Program-made: the position numbers and the translations under genes
Part shown: positions 4,766-42,775 of the stretch, one piece after another
How the letters are laid out: every line of letters starts with the position of its first letter
How positions within the stretch are numbered: the first letter of the stretch is position 1
Origin: Gonapodya prolifera JEL478
Lineage: Eukaryota > Monoblepharomycota > Monoblepharidomycetes > Monoblepharidales > Gonapodyaceae
DNA length: 64,000 bases
Assembly (NCBI GenBank): GCA_001574975.1
Contig: KQ965759.1
Location: forward strand, 237,407-301,406
Direction of reading: 5' to 3'
Notes under the pieces: model-generated
The model's database searches: none
What the model saw: only the letters and a program-made list of their open reading frames with translations
Told to the model about the DNA's origin: nothing

Positions 4766-5266
4766 ATGCCTTCAAAACGGCGCCTGCTCCTCTCTTGGTC
4801 GTGATTTTGGTCACTGTCGCTTTATTGTTCGTCGCTTTCTACGAAAACATGCCAGGATCTTCGTTGGTAGCGCATGCCGCGACGGTTCCACGTCAAGTGC
4901 TACAGGAGCGTGGCAAGTCGAAACCGAAACCACCCCCTGATCCGGCAACCATACCGTGTGAACAGGGTGGGACGTACTGCCCGCCCCATTATGATTGTGA
5001 GTCAGCCTGAATCTGTTCGTTTGTCACCAATCGCCAATAACCCCTCTACTCACGTGACTTTTATCATGTTGAAACCTCAATTAGGCTATCCGGACCAGCG
5101 CAAATGTATATTCAACTGGGTCGTTGATCCTTTTGCACCGCCGCCGCCTCCCTCGGGTGGTTGCGGCGGTGGTGGATGCGGAGGAGGTGGAGGAAAAGGA
5201 ACAGGAAGAATCATTGCGGATCCCACCCCATCAGGCGTAGCAGTAGAAGATACATGGTGGTATTGA
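4766..5266 (+). pseudogene. Small secreted Cys/Gly-rich protein, copy 2, start region out of frame
   Basis: Paralogue of the gene at 3949. The hydrophobic segment (LLVVILVTVALLFVAF) and LVAHAATVP are followed by a Lys/Pro-rich linker and CEQGGTYCPPHYD. A GTGAGT intron comes next, then exon 2 beginning near 5085 with YPDQRKCIFNWVVDP. The tail has five prolines, a GGCGGGGCGGGGG segment and ends TWWY. The only well-placed ATG (4766) is out of frame with the signal segment, and the frame that holds the signal has no ATG before 4849. Either one base was gained or lost near 4778, or the start lies in an exon not recognised. Lineage-specific; no function assigned. Confidence 0.5.
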
Positions 5267-5843
5267 CGGAAATATGTGGAGATGGCTGCGTGGGAGGATT
5301 AATATTCAACATCCACATCCTCGAACCTGTTGGTCGTGACTAAAGTGCTTAATTTATACATATATATTTACTATTTTATAACATTATATCAGCTACGGCC
5401 ATATGCGCGGAAAAGTGCCGCTTCCCTTCCGATCAGCGCAGCGAAGCCCGCGAGAGCCCAGTCAGTACTAGCGTGAGAGATCAGCTGGGAATACTGGGTG
5501 ATGTAGTTTTGCTCTCGTGGGTTGGTAAGAATTGTTGAAATATATTTTTTTTTTTCGCATGGCGAGACTGTTATCGCATCGTCACCCAGTCCATGTCATT
5601 TTGTTCATGATTCGGGCGGTCCAATAAGTCAAAACATTTAGAATTGGTTTCTACTGCGATTGCATTAGGTACATAAATAGCGGTCTCACTCGTTCTCCAT
5701 ATTTTGGAAGATGGAGACGAAGGAGCCTAAAAAATGCTATCGTTCCCTTGAAAGGGTTCACAGGGAAAGACCGGTTGAATTCGGCCCGTCGCGATCTCGA
5801 CCCCACACTCAAAACGACTGAGCACCCATCAGCGAACATCGCC
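5267..5843. promoter_or_regulatory. Upstream region of the ethanolamine ammonia-lyase gene
   Basis: 577 nt without a coding signal between the secreted-protein relic and the EutB-EutC start. It contains an AT-rich stretch (5350-5390) and a T12 run near 5545. The position makes it the presumptive promoter and leader of the lyase gene. No specific regulatory site was identified. Confidence 0.4.
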
Positions 5844-8693
5844 ATGTCCGCGTTCGAATCACAGCCGTTTGTTTCGACGGGAAGCACCTCGGCGGGCGCT
5901 CCGTCTCTCGATCCGTACCGGTCCACTGCTGCGCTGAAGCTGACGTGGGGGCGCGCGAACGAGTTCAAGGAGGGCGACGAGGCGATCGGTGTCGCGGCAC
6001 TGAACGATGATGAGAGGATGGAGGTGGGAGTCGTGATCTCGTTCGTTGAATGATGGGGCCAGGTCTGACTTTGCGTCCGATCACTCAAGGCTCGAGGTAT
6101 CATCGCGTCCATGCGACTGGCGGATATCCAGAGCTCTCTGTTCGTGCAAGACGAGGTGTCGACATTCATAGAGAGCTTCGTGGACCGGGAAATCGCAAAG
6201 TCAATCAGCTCGTGGACCTTTGGCGAGCTCAAGCAGTTTTTGTTGGACAAGAGCGAGGACGAGATAAAGGCCATCATGCCGGGCCTTCGCTCCGAAGTCG
6301 TCGCTGGCGTCATCAAGCTCATGTCCTCCGACGAGCTCATCGCCGTATCATCCAAAATCTACAACAACGCGCCAGGGTCCACACTCGGTGCGCGCGGGCA
6401 ACTCGGGTCTCGCATCCAGCCAAACTCCCCCGACGACGACCCCACGGAAATTCTCTACTCGGTCCTCGAGGGTCTCTCTTATGGATGTGGGGATATGGTG
6501 CTCGGAATCAACCCCGTCAACGGGGACAGAGTTTCCGTCGCCCGCCTCGAGGCCACGCTCAAGGACGTCGTGCAAACGTTCCAGGCAGAGGATACGCTCA
6601 AGTGGTGCGTCTTGGCGCACATCAAGGACCAGTCCGCCGTTGAAGTGAGCTTCCGGGTCTCATTCATGGACATGCTCCACACAGTCCAACGAACTGACCT
6701 CCACCCCCCCAAAGGACACATACGGCCCCGCCATCCTCTCCACGCTCTTCCAGTCCCTCGGCGGCACGTCCTCCCTGCTCTCCACATTCGACACATCCGT
6801 CCCGAACCTCGTCGACCTATGCTGCCGACCGCAAGCCCCGCCGAACCTCTACTTCGAGACGGGTCAAGGGTCGGCGTTCACGAATGGGGCGGACCATGGC
6901 GTGGATATGGTTACCTTGGAGTGTAGGAATTATGGATTGGCGAGGGCGTTGACGAAGAAGGCCGGGAAGTGGACCATGGTGAATACCGTGGCTGGGTTTA
7001 TCGGGTATGTACTTGTTTTCCCGGGGGGGGGGGGGGGGGAGGGGGGCGCCTGTTGCCATCTCCCACTGGGCACACACATGCCTAACGATACCCCTCCCGT
7101 AGCCCCGAAGTATTCCGCACCTCGGCCCAGCTCCTCCGCGCCTGCCTTGAAGACTTGTGTGCGGGCAAACTTCACGGACTAATCATGGGACTCGATGTGT
7201 GTTCGACGTATCATGTGAGTTTGGGGAGTTGGGCGGGGTGGTGGTTTCTAGTGGTGCTGACCCTTCGGCCTTTGATCGGGATGGAAAGATGGGTGTGGAG
7301 ATTGATGAGCTGGTGAGTGTGGTTGTAATCTTATTCCAAGTGAGGTTGTTCAAATATTATTTGGAATTCTGTGACGTCAGGATGACATCCAAGAAAGCAT
7401 TCTCCCCGCCGGTCCCGGTTTCTACATGGCCGTCGCTGGAAAATCGGACCCCATGCTGTCCTGTGAGTAAACCCTCCCACCTACCAGCTCGCAACCCCTT
7501 GCCAAGCGCTCACCCATATCGTCACGACACAGACCTCACAACCGACTTCCGCGACATCGCCCGCCTGCGTTACAAACACTCCATGGGCCTCTCACCCTCC
7601 CTCATCTCTCTCCTATCCTCCCTCGGGACCGCCGACCCAACAACGAACACCCTGACCCGCCCGGGCGACACGGAGCACATGTACGTCCAGTACCGGCGCC
7701 GTAAGGGCGACACACGCCCCGAGACCGAGATTAGAGCAGAGGCCCGCAAGCAGCTGGACGAGTTCCAGAAGCGCGGGTTGGATCTGGGGTACGGCTGTGT
7801 GGAAGGGTTCAGACCACCCCCCGCCATCGACGGGCCCAAGAGGGATATCTACCACGCGGCCAAGCGGGCCATTTACGAGCGCCTACCCGAACCTTTTGTC
7901 GACGAACTGCGCCGGTTCAGGTTCGACGGGGACGGCGGGGACGGCGGATTCCCAGGCGCAGGCGGTCGTTGTGTCGACGCAGGCACGGAGCCGGGAGGAG
8001 TACGTGCTCAAGCCCGTCACGGGTGAGCACCTCGACGAAGCCGCCGCGCAGATCCTGAAACGGCGCGGAGGGCAATTGGCGCAGACGGTTGCGGAGATGG
8101 AGGGAAACCCGCCGACGAATTTGGTCCAGGTCGTGGTTTCCGACGGACTCAATTCGGACTCGGTTGCGGCGCCGGGGCATTTGTTTCCGTTTTTGAGGGA
8201 GTTGGAGAGTAGTCTCAGGGCCGCGCCGGCTGCTGCGGGCGCGGAGGCGACAGCTTCGACACCACCACCACCGACCCGTGGGGCAGGTGTGGTCCACACA
8301 TTCGTACCCACCCTCGTCGTCGTCGAAAACGCCCGCGTGCGCGCCGGATACGCCGCGGGTCGTGACATCGTCGCTACCCTCGTCTCTTCCGCCGCCGAAT
8401 ACGCCACCACCTCGGCCCACGGCACCCTCCGCCTCCCGCGTTTCTTCACCACCGTCCACATTATTGGCGAACGCCCGGGCAACGGTCAGAACACGTTCTC
8501 GGCGTACGTGGCGTGCGTGACCCTGGAGCAGTGGATGGCGGGCGAGGTTGATCATGGCGTTGTCGCGCTCGTGAGTGGCGTGAGTGCCACGGCGATGAGG
8601 CCTGAGACGGCGGCCAGGGAGGTTGCGCAGGTGGTGAGGAGGAAGGTGGCTCAGGGGGGTGGGGCGGGTGGGAAGGGGAAGAGTGTTGCGTGA
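5844..8693 (+). CDS. eutBC: Ethanolamine ammonia-lyase, fused large and small subunits (EutB-EutC), adenosylcobalamin-dependent
   Basis: Converts ethanolamine to acetaldehyde and ammonia using adenosylcobalamin. Exons: 5844-6023, 6090-6644, 6715-7004, 7103-7214, 7289-7312 (24 nt), 7381-7462 and 7533-8693; start at the first in-frame ATG. The EutB half runs to ~residue 480. It carries the residues known to bind substrate in the E. coli enzyme: Arg and Gln of SRIQPN (~168, 170), Asn of VLGINPV (~201), Glu of LYFETGQGS (~293) and Asp of SDPMLSYLTT (~410). The EutC half follows directly: REEYVLKPVTGEHL, VVVSDGLNSDSV, NARVRAGYAAGRDIV, VHIIGERPGNGQNTF. At the junction the frame changes near 7877-7960. 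A 58-nt intron (7893-7950, weak donor GTCGAC, acceptor CCCAG) restores one frame and gives 781 residues; a 1-nt indel in the G-rich tract is the alternative. Intron 3 contains a run of 17 G. Confidence 0.93.
7023..7039 (+). repeat. G17 homopolymer inside an intron of the EutB-EutC gene
   Basis: Seventeen consecutive G, then A, then six more G, just after the donor of intron 3. It could form a quadruplex in DNA or pre-mRNA and is error-prone in sequencing. It lies outside coding sequence. Confidence 0.9.
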
Positions 8694-8990
8694 GGGGGGG
8701 CGAGAGGCTGATGGTGTGATTAGAAGGTATCGTTGGTTCTATATTTTTTGTGAAGTGATGTTACAATGTGCGCTCCCTGACAAGGGAATGGGTATCGATT
8801 TGTTATGTTTATAATAGGAGTTGATTGTGTGTGGTGTGTGCGTGTGTGTGAAAATTTTCCAAAGATTCGTGACTCGTGGCAAAAAGCCAAAGGGGGGGAA
8901 TACGATTTCGGTCTCGGTGTTTCGTCGGTTGATTAGGTGTGTCCTGCTCCTTCTCCTTCTCCTTCCCGTCCTGTCCCATCCCGTCCCATC
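8694..8990. other. Convergent intergenic region
   Basis: 297 nt between the stop of the ammonia-lyase gene (+) and the stop of the FAM72 gene (-). It holds a TG-rich stretch and AT-rich segments compatible with 3' ends of both transcripts. No gene seen. Confidence 0.5.
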
Positions 8991-9894
8991 TCATCTGCAC
9001 CACCTCACATAACTCGCCATCCCCGCATCCTTTGCAAGGCTCGCCTTGCCCAGTTCCGGCGACGCGCACGTGCCGCCCTCGGGGTCGGAATCCGCCGCGG
9101 GGAGCGCGGCCCACGTCATGGGCGAGTGGGAGGTCGGGTGCAAACGGTCCCGGGCGCGGACGGCTTCAGACAGGAACATCCTGGTGAGGTTCAAGTGTAG
9201 GTCCGTGATTAGTTAGTAGTGCGTCGGACACGCAAACGGGTCCAAGATTGCACTCACCAGTAATGCCCATTATTACACGCTCCCAAACACCTCTCGCACG
9301 GTCTCGTGACATGGTATCCGACAACACACCCGCACACGAGACACGCGACGTCCCGGATCCGGCACCGGCACGAGCGCGTGCGGTAGTCTTTTTCGACGAG
9401 CGCGACGGATTTGGGAGGCGGGAGGTCCGTGGAGAAGAGCTCGACGCTGCGATTGCCGATTGGAGTGATGGTTAAATATAGAACTCGTCAAGTGCGCATG
9501 CGTGGAAGGGAAGGGTGAGGAGGACGCACCGAGTGTCACCCAGAAGAATGGCACGCATCCCACGCCCGCATACGCGGGATGTGCAGTGGGAGCATTCCAG
9601 CTCCACTACGGGCTTTGACCGAAACTGCGGATGTAGGCTCGCCGCGGAAATCGCGCCCTGCTGCGCCGCTTGATGTGTGGTCGACTGCACCTGCCCCGTC
9701 GTGGCTCCCGGCGCAGAAGCAGAAGCAGAAGCGACGGTAGCTGCAGACGCTTGGTTGAGTGAGGAGATGGAAGAGGCGAGTTGCGCGAGTGCGTTGCTGG
9801 CGGAGGTTGTGGAAGGAAGGGATAAGTGGAGTTGTGGGGGTGTCATGGAGGGTGAGTAAGCGTTCGATGAGTAAGCGTTCGGTCTTTGAGGCAT
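8991..9894 (-). CDS. FAM72-family protein
   Basis: Three exons, 9894-9530, 9446-9258 and 9180-8991, spliced in matching phases, give 247 residues. The first ~85 residues are low-complexity (Ser, Ala, Gln). The FAM72 core follows: LECSHCTSRVCGRGMRAILLGDT, then VELFSTDLPPPKSV, and the paired-cysteine segment ending in the family hallmark ACNNGHYW. Vertebrate FAM72 proteins are nearly all core (~150 residues), so the N-terminal extension and a ~60-residue tail are additions here. The conserved CxxC pairs suggest zinc binding. Human FAM72A acts with uracil-DNA glycosylase; whether that holds in fungi is unknown. The ATG at 9894 is the only plausible start. Confidence 0.85.
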
Positions 9895-38284: not shown

Positions 38285-40643
38285 ATGAGCCCGATTCAAT
38301 CTAAAGGAGTGGCGACATCGGGCGTTTTCGGGAAGTTGTGGGATGGCGGTGAGTTCCAGTCAACACACTTTGGGGGGCGCGAAAGGGACGAGCGAGCATT
38401 GGCCATTTTCGGCGGACTCTTTTGAATTCGAATTGCGGAAATGAATTCTCCTGGAGACGTTCCGTCTTGCGCGAGCGGGGAATGGCGGAGGGTACATCAA
38501 GAGGGAGCCACCTGTTTGTTGCCAAGACCGGAAAGTCATGGACGCGCTCTTCGCGAGCAAAATCTTTGTCACACGGCGGAGTTCGATTGCGGGAATGTAT
38601 TTCCACTCAATCCTTCAGAGCCGCCCGGTGGATTCGCTCAGAATGCTTGTTTTCAAGTCGATCAAGAACATGAAGCCTTTCTCATTTACCTTCCACCTCT
38701 GAAGCAACCTCCCTTTTGCGGAACTCTATGATTTCTTCTCTGAAAGGGACGATTACCACGGGCTACCTCACTATTATCGATGAGACCGGTGCCACACACG
38801 AAGATATCAATGTCAACAGTCGAGATGCCGTCGACGAAACCTTGAGAGCTGACTTCACAGTCAAGGACGAAATCTTCTGGTGGCGAGTGGCTGGCACCGA
38901 GTCGCTGGTGAACTTGGATATTGATCCAAATCAAACTAAGAGTCTCTGACACGTGATCCCCACTGCTCCCCCTTCTTTTTGTACCAGGGAGTCGGCGAGG
39001 CGTTCATGTATGATGAATTCGAGACGTCGGATATTGCAAAGCTTTTGAAGGTGAGCGGGATCCTCCTCGTGTGTCGTGGAACGTCCGGGTGAAACTCAAT
39101 TGCTTCGACGTCAATTAGGTTCTGGCGCTCAATCGCCCAGCTGCTGCGACTTACTCGTTGGTCCCACAACCGTTGTGGAATCTCATGGAGTATCTTCGTG
39201 GTGTCATCTACTACTGGACTGTGGCGAGAAACGATTCTCGCGGGGGCTCCGAGAAAAACGTGAAGGAACACTACGACATTGGAAACGAGCTGTTTGAGGG
39301 CTTCCTGGTCAGTAAAAAAACCACTCTTGTGATTTCATCTGAGCTAATCGAATTGTTACACTCGACAAAGGACGAAACGATGACATACTCTTGTCCCATC
39401 TTTCCAGGCATGGCACCGCAACCTTCTTCGCTAAACACCGACACCGCAACGTCTACAGCTGAAGACGATGAAACAATCTGCTCTGATCGGATGCCAAGCC
39501 CTCCTCCGGAGACTTCTTCACCACCCCAGAAACCCGTACCACTCCCGTACCTTCGATCTTACCCCGTTCCACCTTCCAGTCTCCTCGCTCAGGCCCAAAC
39601 GGCGAAGTTGAGACGCCTCATTCATCTATCTGGATTCCGCCCAGGCGATCGCGTCGTGGAGATCGGCTCCGGTTGGGGGTCGATGTCGCTGGAACTCACG
39701 GCCCTTGGCGCGAAACATGTTACCACCTTGACCCTTGCCGATGAACAAGCAGCTGTTGTGAGGGGGCGCTGTGACGAGAAAGTCGTCAAGTGTGAAGTTA
39801 TTGATTACCGAAAGTATGCCGATAAGGTAAATATTCCCAAACGAGTTAACTCGGCCGGTCGAAGTTCTGAACAACTGTGTTCCGGAAGTGTGAGGAACCA
39901 TTTGACCGTCTTGTTTCCTGTGAAATGATCGAAGCGGTCGGAAAGGAGTTCCTGGCTGAATACTTCGCAAAGATTGATAAAGTGAGTCGGCTTCGAACTT
40001 TCACTCGATGAGCCGCCTATTCTGACCACATGTCGATGCTGCGATTTCTACCAAACTCAACAGCTCGTCCACCCTATCCACGGAGCTGCCGCTATTCAGT
40101 TCATTTCGATTCCAGACAGTCGTTACAACGAATACGTTACCGGCGGTCCCGACTACATCAACAAGCACATTTTCCCCGGTGAGTTCTTCGGTAACACTTT
40201 GTCGCGAAATAGTCCACTTGCTTTACATCTCTCTTGACACAAAAGGTGGTCACCTCCCGTCCTTGACATCTTTCGTCGAGGCTGTGTACCAAGGCACCTC
40301 GGGGCGCCTCATCGTTGACGAAGCAAACCAAATCGGACCACACTACGCTGTAGCCCTCCGCATGTGGCGGGAGCGATTCCTGGCCAACTTCGACCAGGTG
40401 CGTTGATGACTAGCTGATGATCGAATGCCACGGAACCTCTGGTTGATTTTGCCCAAATCCACCTCGCAGATCGCACCGATCAAACCATCACTCTACACGC
40501 CTATCTTCCGCAGAAAATGGGAATTCTACTTCGCATTTTGTGAAGCGGGTTTCGAGACAGGGCGTCTTGGTATTTATCAAGTGAGACTTTGCCGGGAGGG
40601 AAGGCTGGGGCAATGGGGACAGTTAGCCCGTACCATTGCGTGA
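38285..40643 (+). CDS. Cyclopropane-fatty-acyl-phospholipid synthase family (SAM-dependent)
   Basis: Nine exons (38285-38348, 38705-38907, 38988-39050, 39119-39307, 39371-39826, 39889-39981, 40064-40178, 40246-40397, 40470-40643) join in phase to 502 residues. The family adds a methylene or methyl group from S-adenosylmethionine to a double bond of a membrane acyl chain. Motifs: LTIIDETG and GVGEAFMYDEF in the N-terminal domain; VKEHYDIGNELF; DETMTYSCPIF; the SAM site VVEIGSGWGSMSLEL; FDRLVSCEMIEAVG; YINKHIFPGG; and a C-terminal RRKWEFYFAFCEAGFETGRL. A ~60-residue Ser/Pro-rich insert follows CPIF. The first intron is 356 nt, unusually long here. The gene converges on the DUF1365 gene, with 160 nt between stops. 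Confidence 0.9.
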
Positions 40644-40803: not shown

Positions 40804-42775
40804 TCATCTTCCCCGCGCACTACCAACGTCACTCTCCCATCTGCTCCATCGTTCAAACTCATTCTCATTTGGACCCTTCGACCCATCGGAATAAGTTACC
40901 AAGCGTCCGCTTACCTCTTCGATTCCAGGTTCACTTCCTTCGACATACCATGCCAACTTGCGCCCCAATGACCCAAACAGGTTATACTCCACAGATGCCC
41001 AGAGCAAAAGCACAACGTCATAGAGCGACCCCGTCGCCGCAAGGGGTTCAAGAGCCGCATCTGTTGAATCAATTGTTTCGGCAAGTCTTCCAGAATTATG
41101 CCGTCGAATGGGACCCTCTACGCCCTTGACCGTTTGTCCTCCTTCTCCATCTTCAACGCGCAAAAAGTTCACAATGTCCCGTGGATTGCCCTCCCACCAG
41201 CCAGCCGCGTAACCCGCACGCCAGACAGCGTACGTTGATTGAGAGTCATTTCCCACGAGAGCAAGGTAGTACGGCAGTAGTAGGTGGGGAAGATGAATGC
41301 GAATCGTGTTTGCTGGCGACAGACAATCTGAAGGAGAGGTGGGAGTGACGGCAACAGAGAACGTTTGCAGAGACGGGTCGGTGAATGTAACAACAACATT
41401 CTTGGATTTCGAGTGAGCTATGTCGGAAAGCTGTGATAAAAAGCGGGGGAGAACTCTCCTAATGTCGAAAGATCGATATCGTTAAGATTTTCGCCATGGA
41501 AATGTCCAAGCACTCGTGTGAGTTACCTGCCAAACCACCCGCCATCGGAGACATCTTTGAAGATTGTGTAGCCTTCCCGCCATTGCAGCAAATATCCAGT
41601 GCCGTCTGCCCGATTCTCATAAACTTTTACCCAGCTTCCATTCATCTTACTTTCAATCAGTTCTCCTCCAGTGACCGGCTTTCCGTTTATATCAGTCCAG
41701 CTTGGGACAGGTTCTGGTCGACTGTAAACGGGTAGTTTCCCTCTGCTGGATGTGTATCCGTAATGCACAAGTGCGGCTTGGTAGAGTATTCGCGGAAAGG
41801 TAAGAAAGGCGGTGAGGGGCATCGTGGCAAATAAGGTGAGGAGATTTTGTTGGGTAACGGGAGCGAAAGTTGGGGCTTCTAGGATAGAGAAAAGGCGCGC
41901 AAAGAACACCTTGGGGGTTTTGGGGTACTCTCCCGGCGCGACGTCCTCCTTGGGATCCGAAGGGCTGTCGTGAAACGTGATGGACACGTCCAGGTTTCGA
42001 GATTCCCCGATCCCGCCATTGAAAGGATTGGTGAGGTGGACGACGTACCATCCTTTTCTGTGATTGAAGGGTGAGACGTGAAAAGAACGATGTACGACGT
42101 TTGAGGTGTCATAGCTATCAACAAAGAAGGGTTAATTATTTGTGTTGGTTTTTTCGACGCCGCCCGACTAGCACGCACCCTGTCCTTGTCTTCACTCTGT
42201 TTCGCTCATCCAGCATATAGATATGCGAGTCCCCAAAGGTATTTGCCACTTCGAGAATCACACAAAGCAACTCCCGGTGGTGTTGTTCGTCCTCAGGCTT
42301 CGATTCGTCCCGCGCTTTCAAGACATAGTGGACCGAAAGAGGCCGGAAGGCATACCCCAAGACACACGGTGTAGTGAGGAGATACGAGGATCCCGCACGG
42401 GTTGGATCGATACCCTGCAGGTCGGCATTCGTATTCAGTAAATCTTGTCGAGTCGGTTTTACGAACTCAAAAAGAACCCACCACTTGCTCAAGCCAGTAC
42501 AACATGCGCTTCTCAATTGTATCAAGGCCATTGCCTTCTGCTCCTTGAACTTTCAAATAGTCCTTCGTCCTCAATCCGAACAACGGAGGTACAGAACTCT
42601 CCCAATCAATCCCCCACAACCACGACGATACGCCTTCGATCGTCCGCTCCAGACGGCGTACGTCTATCGCCACATAGAAAAGAGGATACTCGAAGCGCGT
42701 CCGTGATTCTGCAGGCAGGAGGCGGGCATGGAGTGTTGACACTGATGGCAGCAGGAGAGCCGGAGGCAGGGACAT
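40804..42775 (-). CDS. DUF1365-domain protein
   Basis: Four exons (42775-42482, 42414-42179, 42114-41527, 41458-40804) give 590 residues without frame conflict. The DUF1365 domain is plain: TLHARLLPAESRTRFEYPLF, VGIDPTRAGSSYLLTTPCVL, GYAFRPLSVHYVL, LLCVILEVANTFGDSHIYML and the hallmark HRSFHVSPFNHRKGWY. After ~350 residues a membrane-proximal segment (FAPVTQQNLLTLFATMPLTAFLTFPRIL) matches the end of bacterial DUF1365 proteins. The last ~230 residues are an extension not recognised. In many bacteria DUF1365 genes sit in operons with CFA-synthase-like methyltransferases and an FAD amine-oxidase-like gene. The adjacency here suggests joint work on a modified membrane fatty acid; biochemical role unproven. 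Confidence 0.88.

Follow-up and report, generated by a model that had tools for sequence, protein, structure and literature searches.

We consider it likely, on the evidence of sequence, that the gene at positions 5844..8693 (+) of the window belongs to the nuclear genome of a fungus that uses B12 and is probably flagellated, and that it encodes a single-chain ethanolamine ammonia-lyase (EAL; EC 4.3.1.7) of the bacterial fused EutB-EutC family. The window is the whole 64,000-nucleotide stretch that was analyzed (G000:C29:237407-301406), and the genome comprises 47.6 Mb in 207 contigs. The EutB (PF06751) and EutC (PF05985) profiles match this genome at two places, the window and C93:140434-143012 (-). 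The second gene copy spans C93:143252-140395 on the minus strand, and alignment of the two copies gave seven exons in each.

Gene structure and active-site residues

In the window, exon 1 (5844..6023) begins with the start ATG and encodes an N-terminal extension without a hydrophobic signal. Intron 1 (6024..6089) is 66 nt long in both copies and has a CTGAC motif 25 nt ahead of the acceptor. Exon 2 (6090..6644) matches EutB profile positions 34-223 (E 1.6e-49) and contains the codons for Arg168 (6411-6413), Gln170 (6417-6419), and Asn201 (6510-6512). It is followed by intron 2 (6645..6714; 70 nt, and 71 nt in C93) and by exon 3 (6715..7004), which matches EutB positions 230-320 (E 9e-19) and has the Glu293 codon at 6856-6858. 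Intron 3 (7005..7102; 98 nt, and 88 nt in C93) has a G run inside. Exon 4 (7103..7214) matches EutB positions 321-359 (E 6.2e-11) and has the Asp373 codon at 7194-7196. The EutB matches of exons 2, 3, and 4 are each above the Pfam cut-off by themselves. Intron 4 (7215..7288; 74 nt, and 80 nt in C93) leads to the 24-nt exon 5 (7289..7312), through which the alignment of the joined C93 protein runs. Intron 5 (7313..7380; 68 nt, and 69 nt in C93) is followed by exon 6 (7381..7462), assigned to EutB by alignment, and by intron 6 (7463..7532; 70 nt, and 78 nt in C93). The first part of exon 7 (7533..7955) encodes the EutB C terminus and a linker domain that is common to bacterial fused proteins. 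The second part (7965..8690) encodes the EutC domain in an open frame of 242 codons that ends at the stop codon 8691-8693. Between these parts lies a short region (7956..7964) where the frame is shifted by 2 nt from that of the C93 copy, which is intact. A reading of the sequence alone had proposed at least six introns with good splice sites, and this is what we found. All six window introns are GT-AG and 66-98 nt long, and four have a CTRAY branch-point-like motif 21-32 nt ahead of the acceptor; none was found in introns 5 and 6.

The joined C93 protein matched Pfam EutB with E 9e-123 (410.8 bits; gathering threshold, 25) and EutC with E 4.4e-14 (52.8 bits; gathering threshold, 25.8). In the window, two EutC matches were above the Pfam cut-off (E 3.6e-7 and 4.1e-4). 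The fungal EutC half has the EutC fold. A search of this half against the PDB by sequence returned no EutC chain at E 0.001. The fungal protein scored below the curated NCBIfam cut-offs for both EutB (471.5 bits versus 554) and EutC (37.4 bits versus 230). These models serve to annotate bacteria and archaea. The single fused protein from a bacterium that we scored against them (L032) passed the EutB cut-off with 595.8 bits and failed the EutC cut-off with 86.6 bits.

Fungal R168, Q170, N201, E293, and D373 align with E. coli EutB R160, Q162, N193, E287, and D362, which we take, for both numbering and role, to be the residues that contact the substrate ethanolamine. The alignment therefore bears out the proposal that all five are present. 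These five residues and S247 (E. coli numbering) are invariant in 82 fused and 5 split enzymes, and all six are kept in the fungus. In the EutC half, 33 columns show 95% conservation or more among the bacterial fused proteins. The fungus retains 31 of them, and several of those columns, such as R685, Y688, and H756, differ in the split enzymes. The two-subunit EutB/EutC enzymes of E. coli (3abo) and Listeria (2qez) have the fold and the substrate-binding residues in common with the fungal protein. However, they are encoded by two genes, whereas the C93 copy encodes a single chain.

Relation to the bacterial fused enzymes

Fusion of EutB with EutC is already known in bacteria. The available text of a 2012 study describes fused EutBC in Pelobacter carbinolicus (Pcar_0491 and Pcar_0467; PMC3543383). 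A pattern scan of 84,980 prokaryote genomes gave 359 matches, of which 325 encoded relatives, and we kept the best 80 of these 325. By tblastn, these 80 are 38-42% identical to the query over residues ~36-785. All of them have a single open frame of 650 residues or more, which indicates that they are fused. A tblastn search of plasmids matched 148 records. In 25 of these, from Sinorhizobium, Ensifer, and Pararhizobium, the match extends over 80% or more of the query, and the two that we translated are single open frames. EutB and EutC also occur on a haloarchaeal plasmid, so the bacterial-only distribution assumed in the sequence-only reading was too narrow. Among stretches in viral contigs, 34 matched the pattern and none encodes a relative; a viral origin was rejected.

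The comparison set consisted of 82 bacterial fused proteins (L025, L026, and L030-L109) and 5 split ones, and the P. carbinolicus proteins were likened through their published description. The 82 span Myxococcota, Planctomycetota, Thermodesulfobacteriota, rhizobia, Bacteroidota, Acidobacteriota, and other groups. These proteins and, as described in the available text, those of P. carbinolicus have EutB, linker, and EutC in one chain, as in the fungus. The fungus and the 82 also have the linker domain and the family-specific conserved EutC residues in common. The mean identity of the fungal protein to the fused versus the split enzymes is 48.2% versus 38.4% in EutB, 28.4% versus 13.2% in the linker (residues 437-559), and 37.6% versus 23.6% in EutC. 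The bacterial genes differ from the fungal one, which is nuclear, has six introns, lacks an export signal, and sits on a very long branch.

Phylogeny places the fungus with the 82 fused proteins against the 5 split ones in the whole-protein tree (SH-aLRT 100). The EutB and EutC halves, analyzed apart with 41 chosen fused and 5 split sequences, each gave the same grouping with an SH-aLRT of 100. However, the place of the fungus inside the fused family differs from tree to tree, and its branch is very long (1.5 for the whole protein, 1.29 for EutB, 2.15 for EutC, and 3.51 for the whole protein without the split sequences). The whole-protein tree places it outside all 82 fused proteins (support 99), and the EutB tree likewise places it outside its 41 (support 98). 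In the EutC tree it lies inside the fused proteins, with Myxococcota, Planctomycetota, and Acidobacteriota (support 86). In the tree without split sequences, it is on the other side, apart from a 27-member set of those groups (support 99). A tree in which the fungus was constrained to group with these three was not rejected (p-AU 0.175; 42 of the 83 fused-side sequences plus 5 split). The likeliest origin, and the simplest reading, is an ancient gain from a bacterium of an already fused gene. Alternatively, the gene may have an older eukaryotic history.

The long branch and the scores under the NCBIfam cut-offs could also indicate that the same adenosylcobalamin (AdoCbl) radical enzyme has choline or a different small amino alcohol as its substrate in place of ethanolamine. 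We regard this as improbable, because the fungus and all 82 fused relatives (82/82) retain the five residues presumed to contact ethanolamine.

By a crude rule for Tat- and Sec-like starts, 76 of the 82 bacterial fused proteins have an export signal: 52 have an RR motif, 14 have RK or KR, and 10 are hydrophobic only. The 6 scored as having none are the Myxococcota proteins L052, L066, L100, and L105, together with L074 and L045, the last of which has an RR motif by eye. These Tat-, lipoprotein-, or Sec-like starts suggest a family of exported, possibly periplasmic, AdoCbl enzymes. Two Archangium genomes (L030/L100 and L032/L105) hold both signal-bearing and signal-less types. The neighbors at the 80 loci L030-L109, counted over flanks of unequal length with one member scanned per cluster, included a protein with no Pfam hit (16), an ABC ATPase (15), Gcw_chp (13), SBP_bac_6 (10), Peripla_BP_2 (10), FecCD permease (10), DUF58 (10), and a MoxR-type ATPase (9). 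They resemble the corrinoid-transport surroundings of the Pelobacter fused gene, as far as the available text describes these.

The second copy and the fungal setting

In the exons, the sole indel between the two copies is the 2-nt difference in the EutB-EutC linker near 7959. The C93 copy is a single open EutB-EutC chain of 801 aa. As assembled, the window copy encodes EutB and the linker (578 aa) up to a stop at 8024-8026, and its EutC occupies a different open frame. Of the two copies, only C93 is therefore shown to have an open fused frame. It follows that the proposed single fused gene holds for C93 and fails for the window as assembled; the proposed complete EutC half stands as 242 open codons, but these are out of frame with EutB in the window. 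The offset may be a real allele or an assembly error, or it may be removed by splicing. GT-AG or GC-AG pairs of usual intron length are few around it, and they have a non-consensus donor or would cost conserved residues. An extra intron is therefore an unlikely, if still possible, explanation.

The offset in the window copy could also be a sign that the gene is decaying or dead and has lost its function. This is very unlikely, given that the C93 copy is intact and that the EutC half of the window copy runs through 242 codons without a stop. In addition, dN/dS between the two copies (Nei-Gojobori) is 0.143 over 550 codons of EutB and part of the linker, with 15 amino-acid differences, and 0.153 over the 242 codons of EutC, with 9 amino-acid differences, which shows that purifying selection acts on both halves.

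The two copies lie in a collinear region of ~100 kb, in which C29 198-301 kb corresponds to C93 189-86 kb. Collinear blocks of at least 250 bases have 74-91% identity, and a few off-diagonal matches have 64-77%. This collinearity suggests that the copies are probably haplotypes or homeologues. The stretch that holds the EAL gene (window 5218-9449) is 91% identical to C93 over 4.3 kb. Identity in the other blocks is 74-88%, apart from a 282-base block at 91%. The 91% stretch around the gene may reflect gene conversion or slower change in this region. Near-equal Fungal_trans matches on the G000 contig pairs C24/C147 and C72/C110 hint that more of the assembly is present in two copies. In contrast, MetH, MM-CoA mutase (MCM), the adenosyltransferase, and MeaB have one matching place each in the genome.

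The Fungal_trans profile matches the genome 72 times and none of 14 control prokaryotes. The window holds a DM10 domain, which we take to be a domain of axonemal proteins. Elsewhere in the genome, a rhodopsin exon is followed by guanylyl cyclase exons, a combination presumably known from zoosporic fungi. Together, these features point to a fungus that is probably flagellated and early-branching. The rhodopsin genes are two and adjoining (L134 and L137; G000:C1:1417353-1421131). The guanylyl cyclase exons come after the rhodopsin exon of L134, and the L137 translation looks like L134. Compared with the PDB, a rhodopsin exon had weak matches only.

Bacterial contamination or a chimeric assembly has almost no probability. 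The relatives that we found are bacterial, in searches that covered no eukaryotic database, but the gene has six introns, a diverged copy on another contig that is collinear over ~100 kb, and an EutB part whose identity to the 82 bacterial fused proteins examined does not exceed 50%; the best 80 of the 325 prokaryote relatives are 38-42% identical by tblastn. With the 72 Fungal_trans matches, these results uphold the earlier view that this is a fungal nuclear gene.

We compared 30 window ORFs outside the gene, most of them single exons, with Pfam; 8 matched, and none of the matches was an ethanolamine transporter or an aldehyde dehydrogenase. A 5S rRNA gene lies at window 5391-5509 (+), ~330 bases upstream of the EAL start codon. 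A CMAS (cyclopropane-fatty-acid-synthase-like) exon at 39119-39925 is near a DUF1365 exon at 41526-42131, and we believe the two to be a pair known from bacterial lipid operons.

B12 supply, location, and proposed function

The genome has profile matches, as distinct from gene models, for MetH (PF02965), MM-CoA mutase (PF01642), MeaB (PF03308), and, on three contigs, class II RNR (PF17975). This agrees with the sequence-only reading, which cited other B12 enzymes for some early-branching fungi. An MMAB-type adenosyltransferase (PF01923) matched in two stretches; reading across the DNA, each contains a single in-frame TAG. A search for MMACHC gave no match in the genome or anywhere else that was searched. 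For the EutA reactivase (PF06277), there was no match in the genome, and the same search was positive in 5 of 14 control genomes. Bacterial EAL is inactivated by turnover, according to the available text of PMC5821096. P. carbinolicus is likewise described as being without EutA in the available text of PMC3543383.

By the crude rule that we applied to the 82 bacterial proteins, the fungal protein has no export signal. In the C93 protein, the 12-residue hydropathy peaks at 0.37 within the first 60 residues. Its first 36 residues include 2 basic and 2 acidic ones, unlike a usual mitochondrial presequence. This crude reading of the N terminus suggests that the fungal EAL is located in the cytosol. 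In animals, adenosylcobalamin is made in the mitochondria.

We suggest that the EutB barrel and the EutC half would hold adenosylcobalamin between them. Homolysis of the Co-C bond would yield an adenosyl radical that abstracts hydrogen from ethanolamine, and the substrate radical would then rearrange to give acetaldehyde and ammonia. In this scenario, the fungus would import B12, and the MMAB-type transferase of the genome would adenosylate it to give the cofactor. In the cytosol, the ammonia could serve as a nitrogen source, and the acetaldehyde could be converted to acetate or acetyl-CoA.

B12 use has been described in all non-Dikarya fungal lineages, with enzymes in 50 of 59 proteomes, in the available text of PMC8085122. 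B12 use in the present fungus is alike, as its genome matches all three of the eukaryotic enzymes MetH, MCM, and class II RNR. However, EAL is outside this set, and the word "ethanolamine" does not occur in the main text of that paper (PMC8085122). Other available texts give only MetH, MCM, and RNR II in 160 eukaryotes (PMC2667541), three B12 enzymes in eukaryotes (PMC7435645), two in specific eukaryotes including mammals (PMC7689651), and no eutBC in Tilletia (PMC9172201). We found no report of a eukaryotic or fungal EAL in the available texts of the open-licence PMC literature, with UniProt and MycoCosm outside the search. Because the eukaryotic set described in these texts is MetH, MCM, and RNR II, EAL appears to be new in eukaryotes and of a kind already known from bacteria; the novelty thus appears to be its presence in a eukaryote and not the fusion.

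Going by the sequence evidence, we lean slightly toward the view that this is the first AdoCbl-dependent EAL from a eukaryote, which would make it a fourth class of B12 enzyme in eukaryotes. The gene would be an ancient bacterial capture whose product was relocated inside the fungal cell, where it would turn phospholipid head groups into nitrogen and acetyl units in a B12-dependent manner. The fungal gene supplies a single-chain EAL for mechanistic work, and it draws attention to a large bacterial radical-enzyme family that looks exported. A fourth B12 enzyme, if true, would broaden the use of B12 in early fungi and would hint that they may depend on bacteria that make it.
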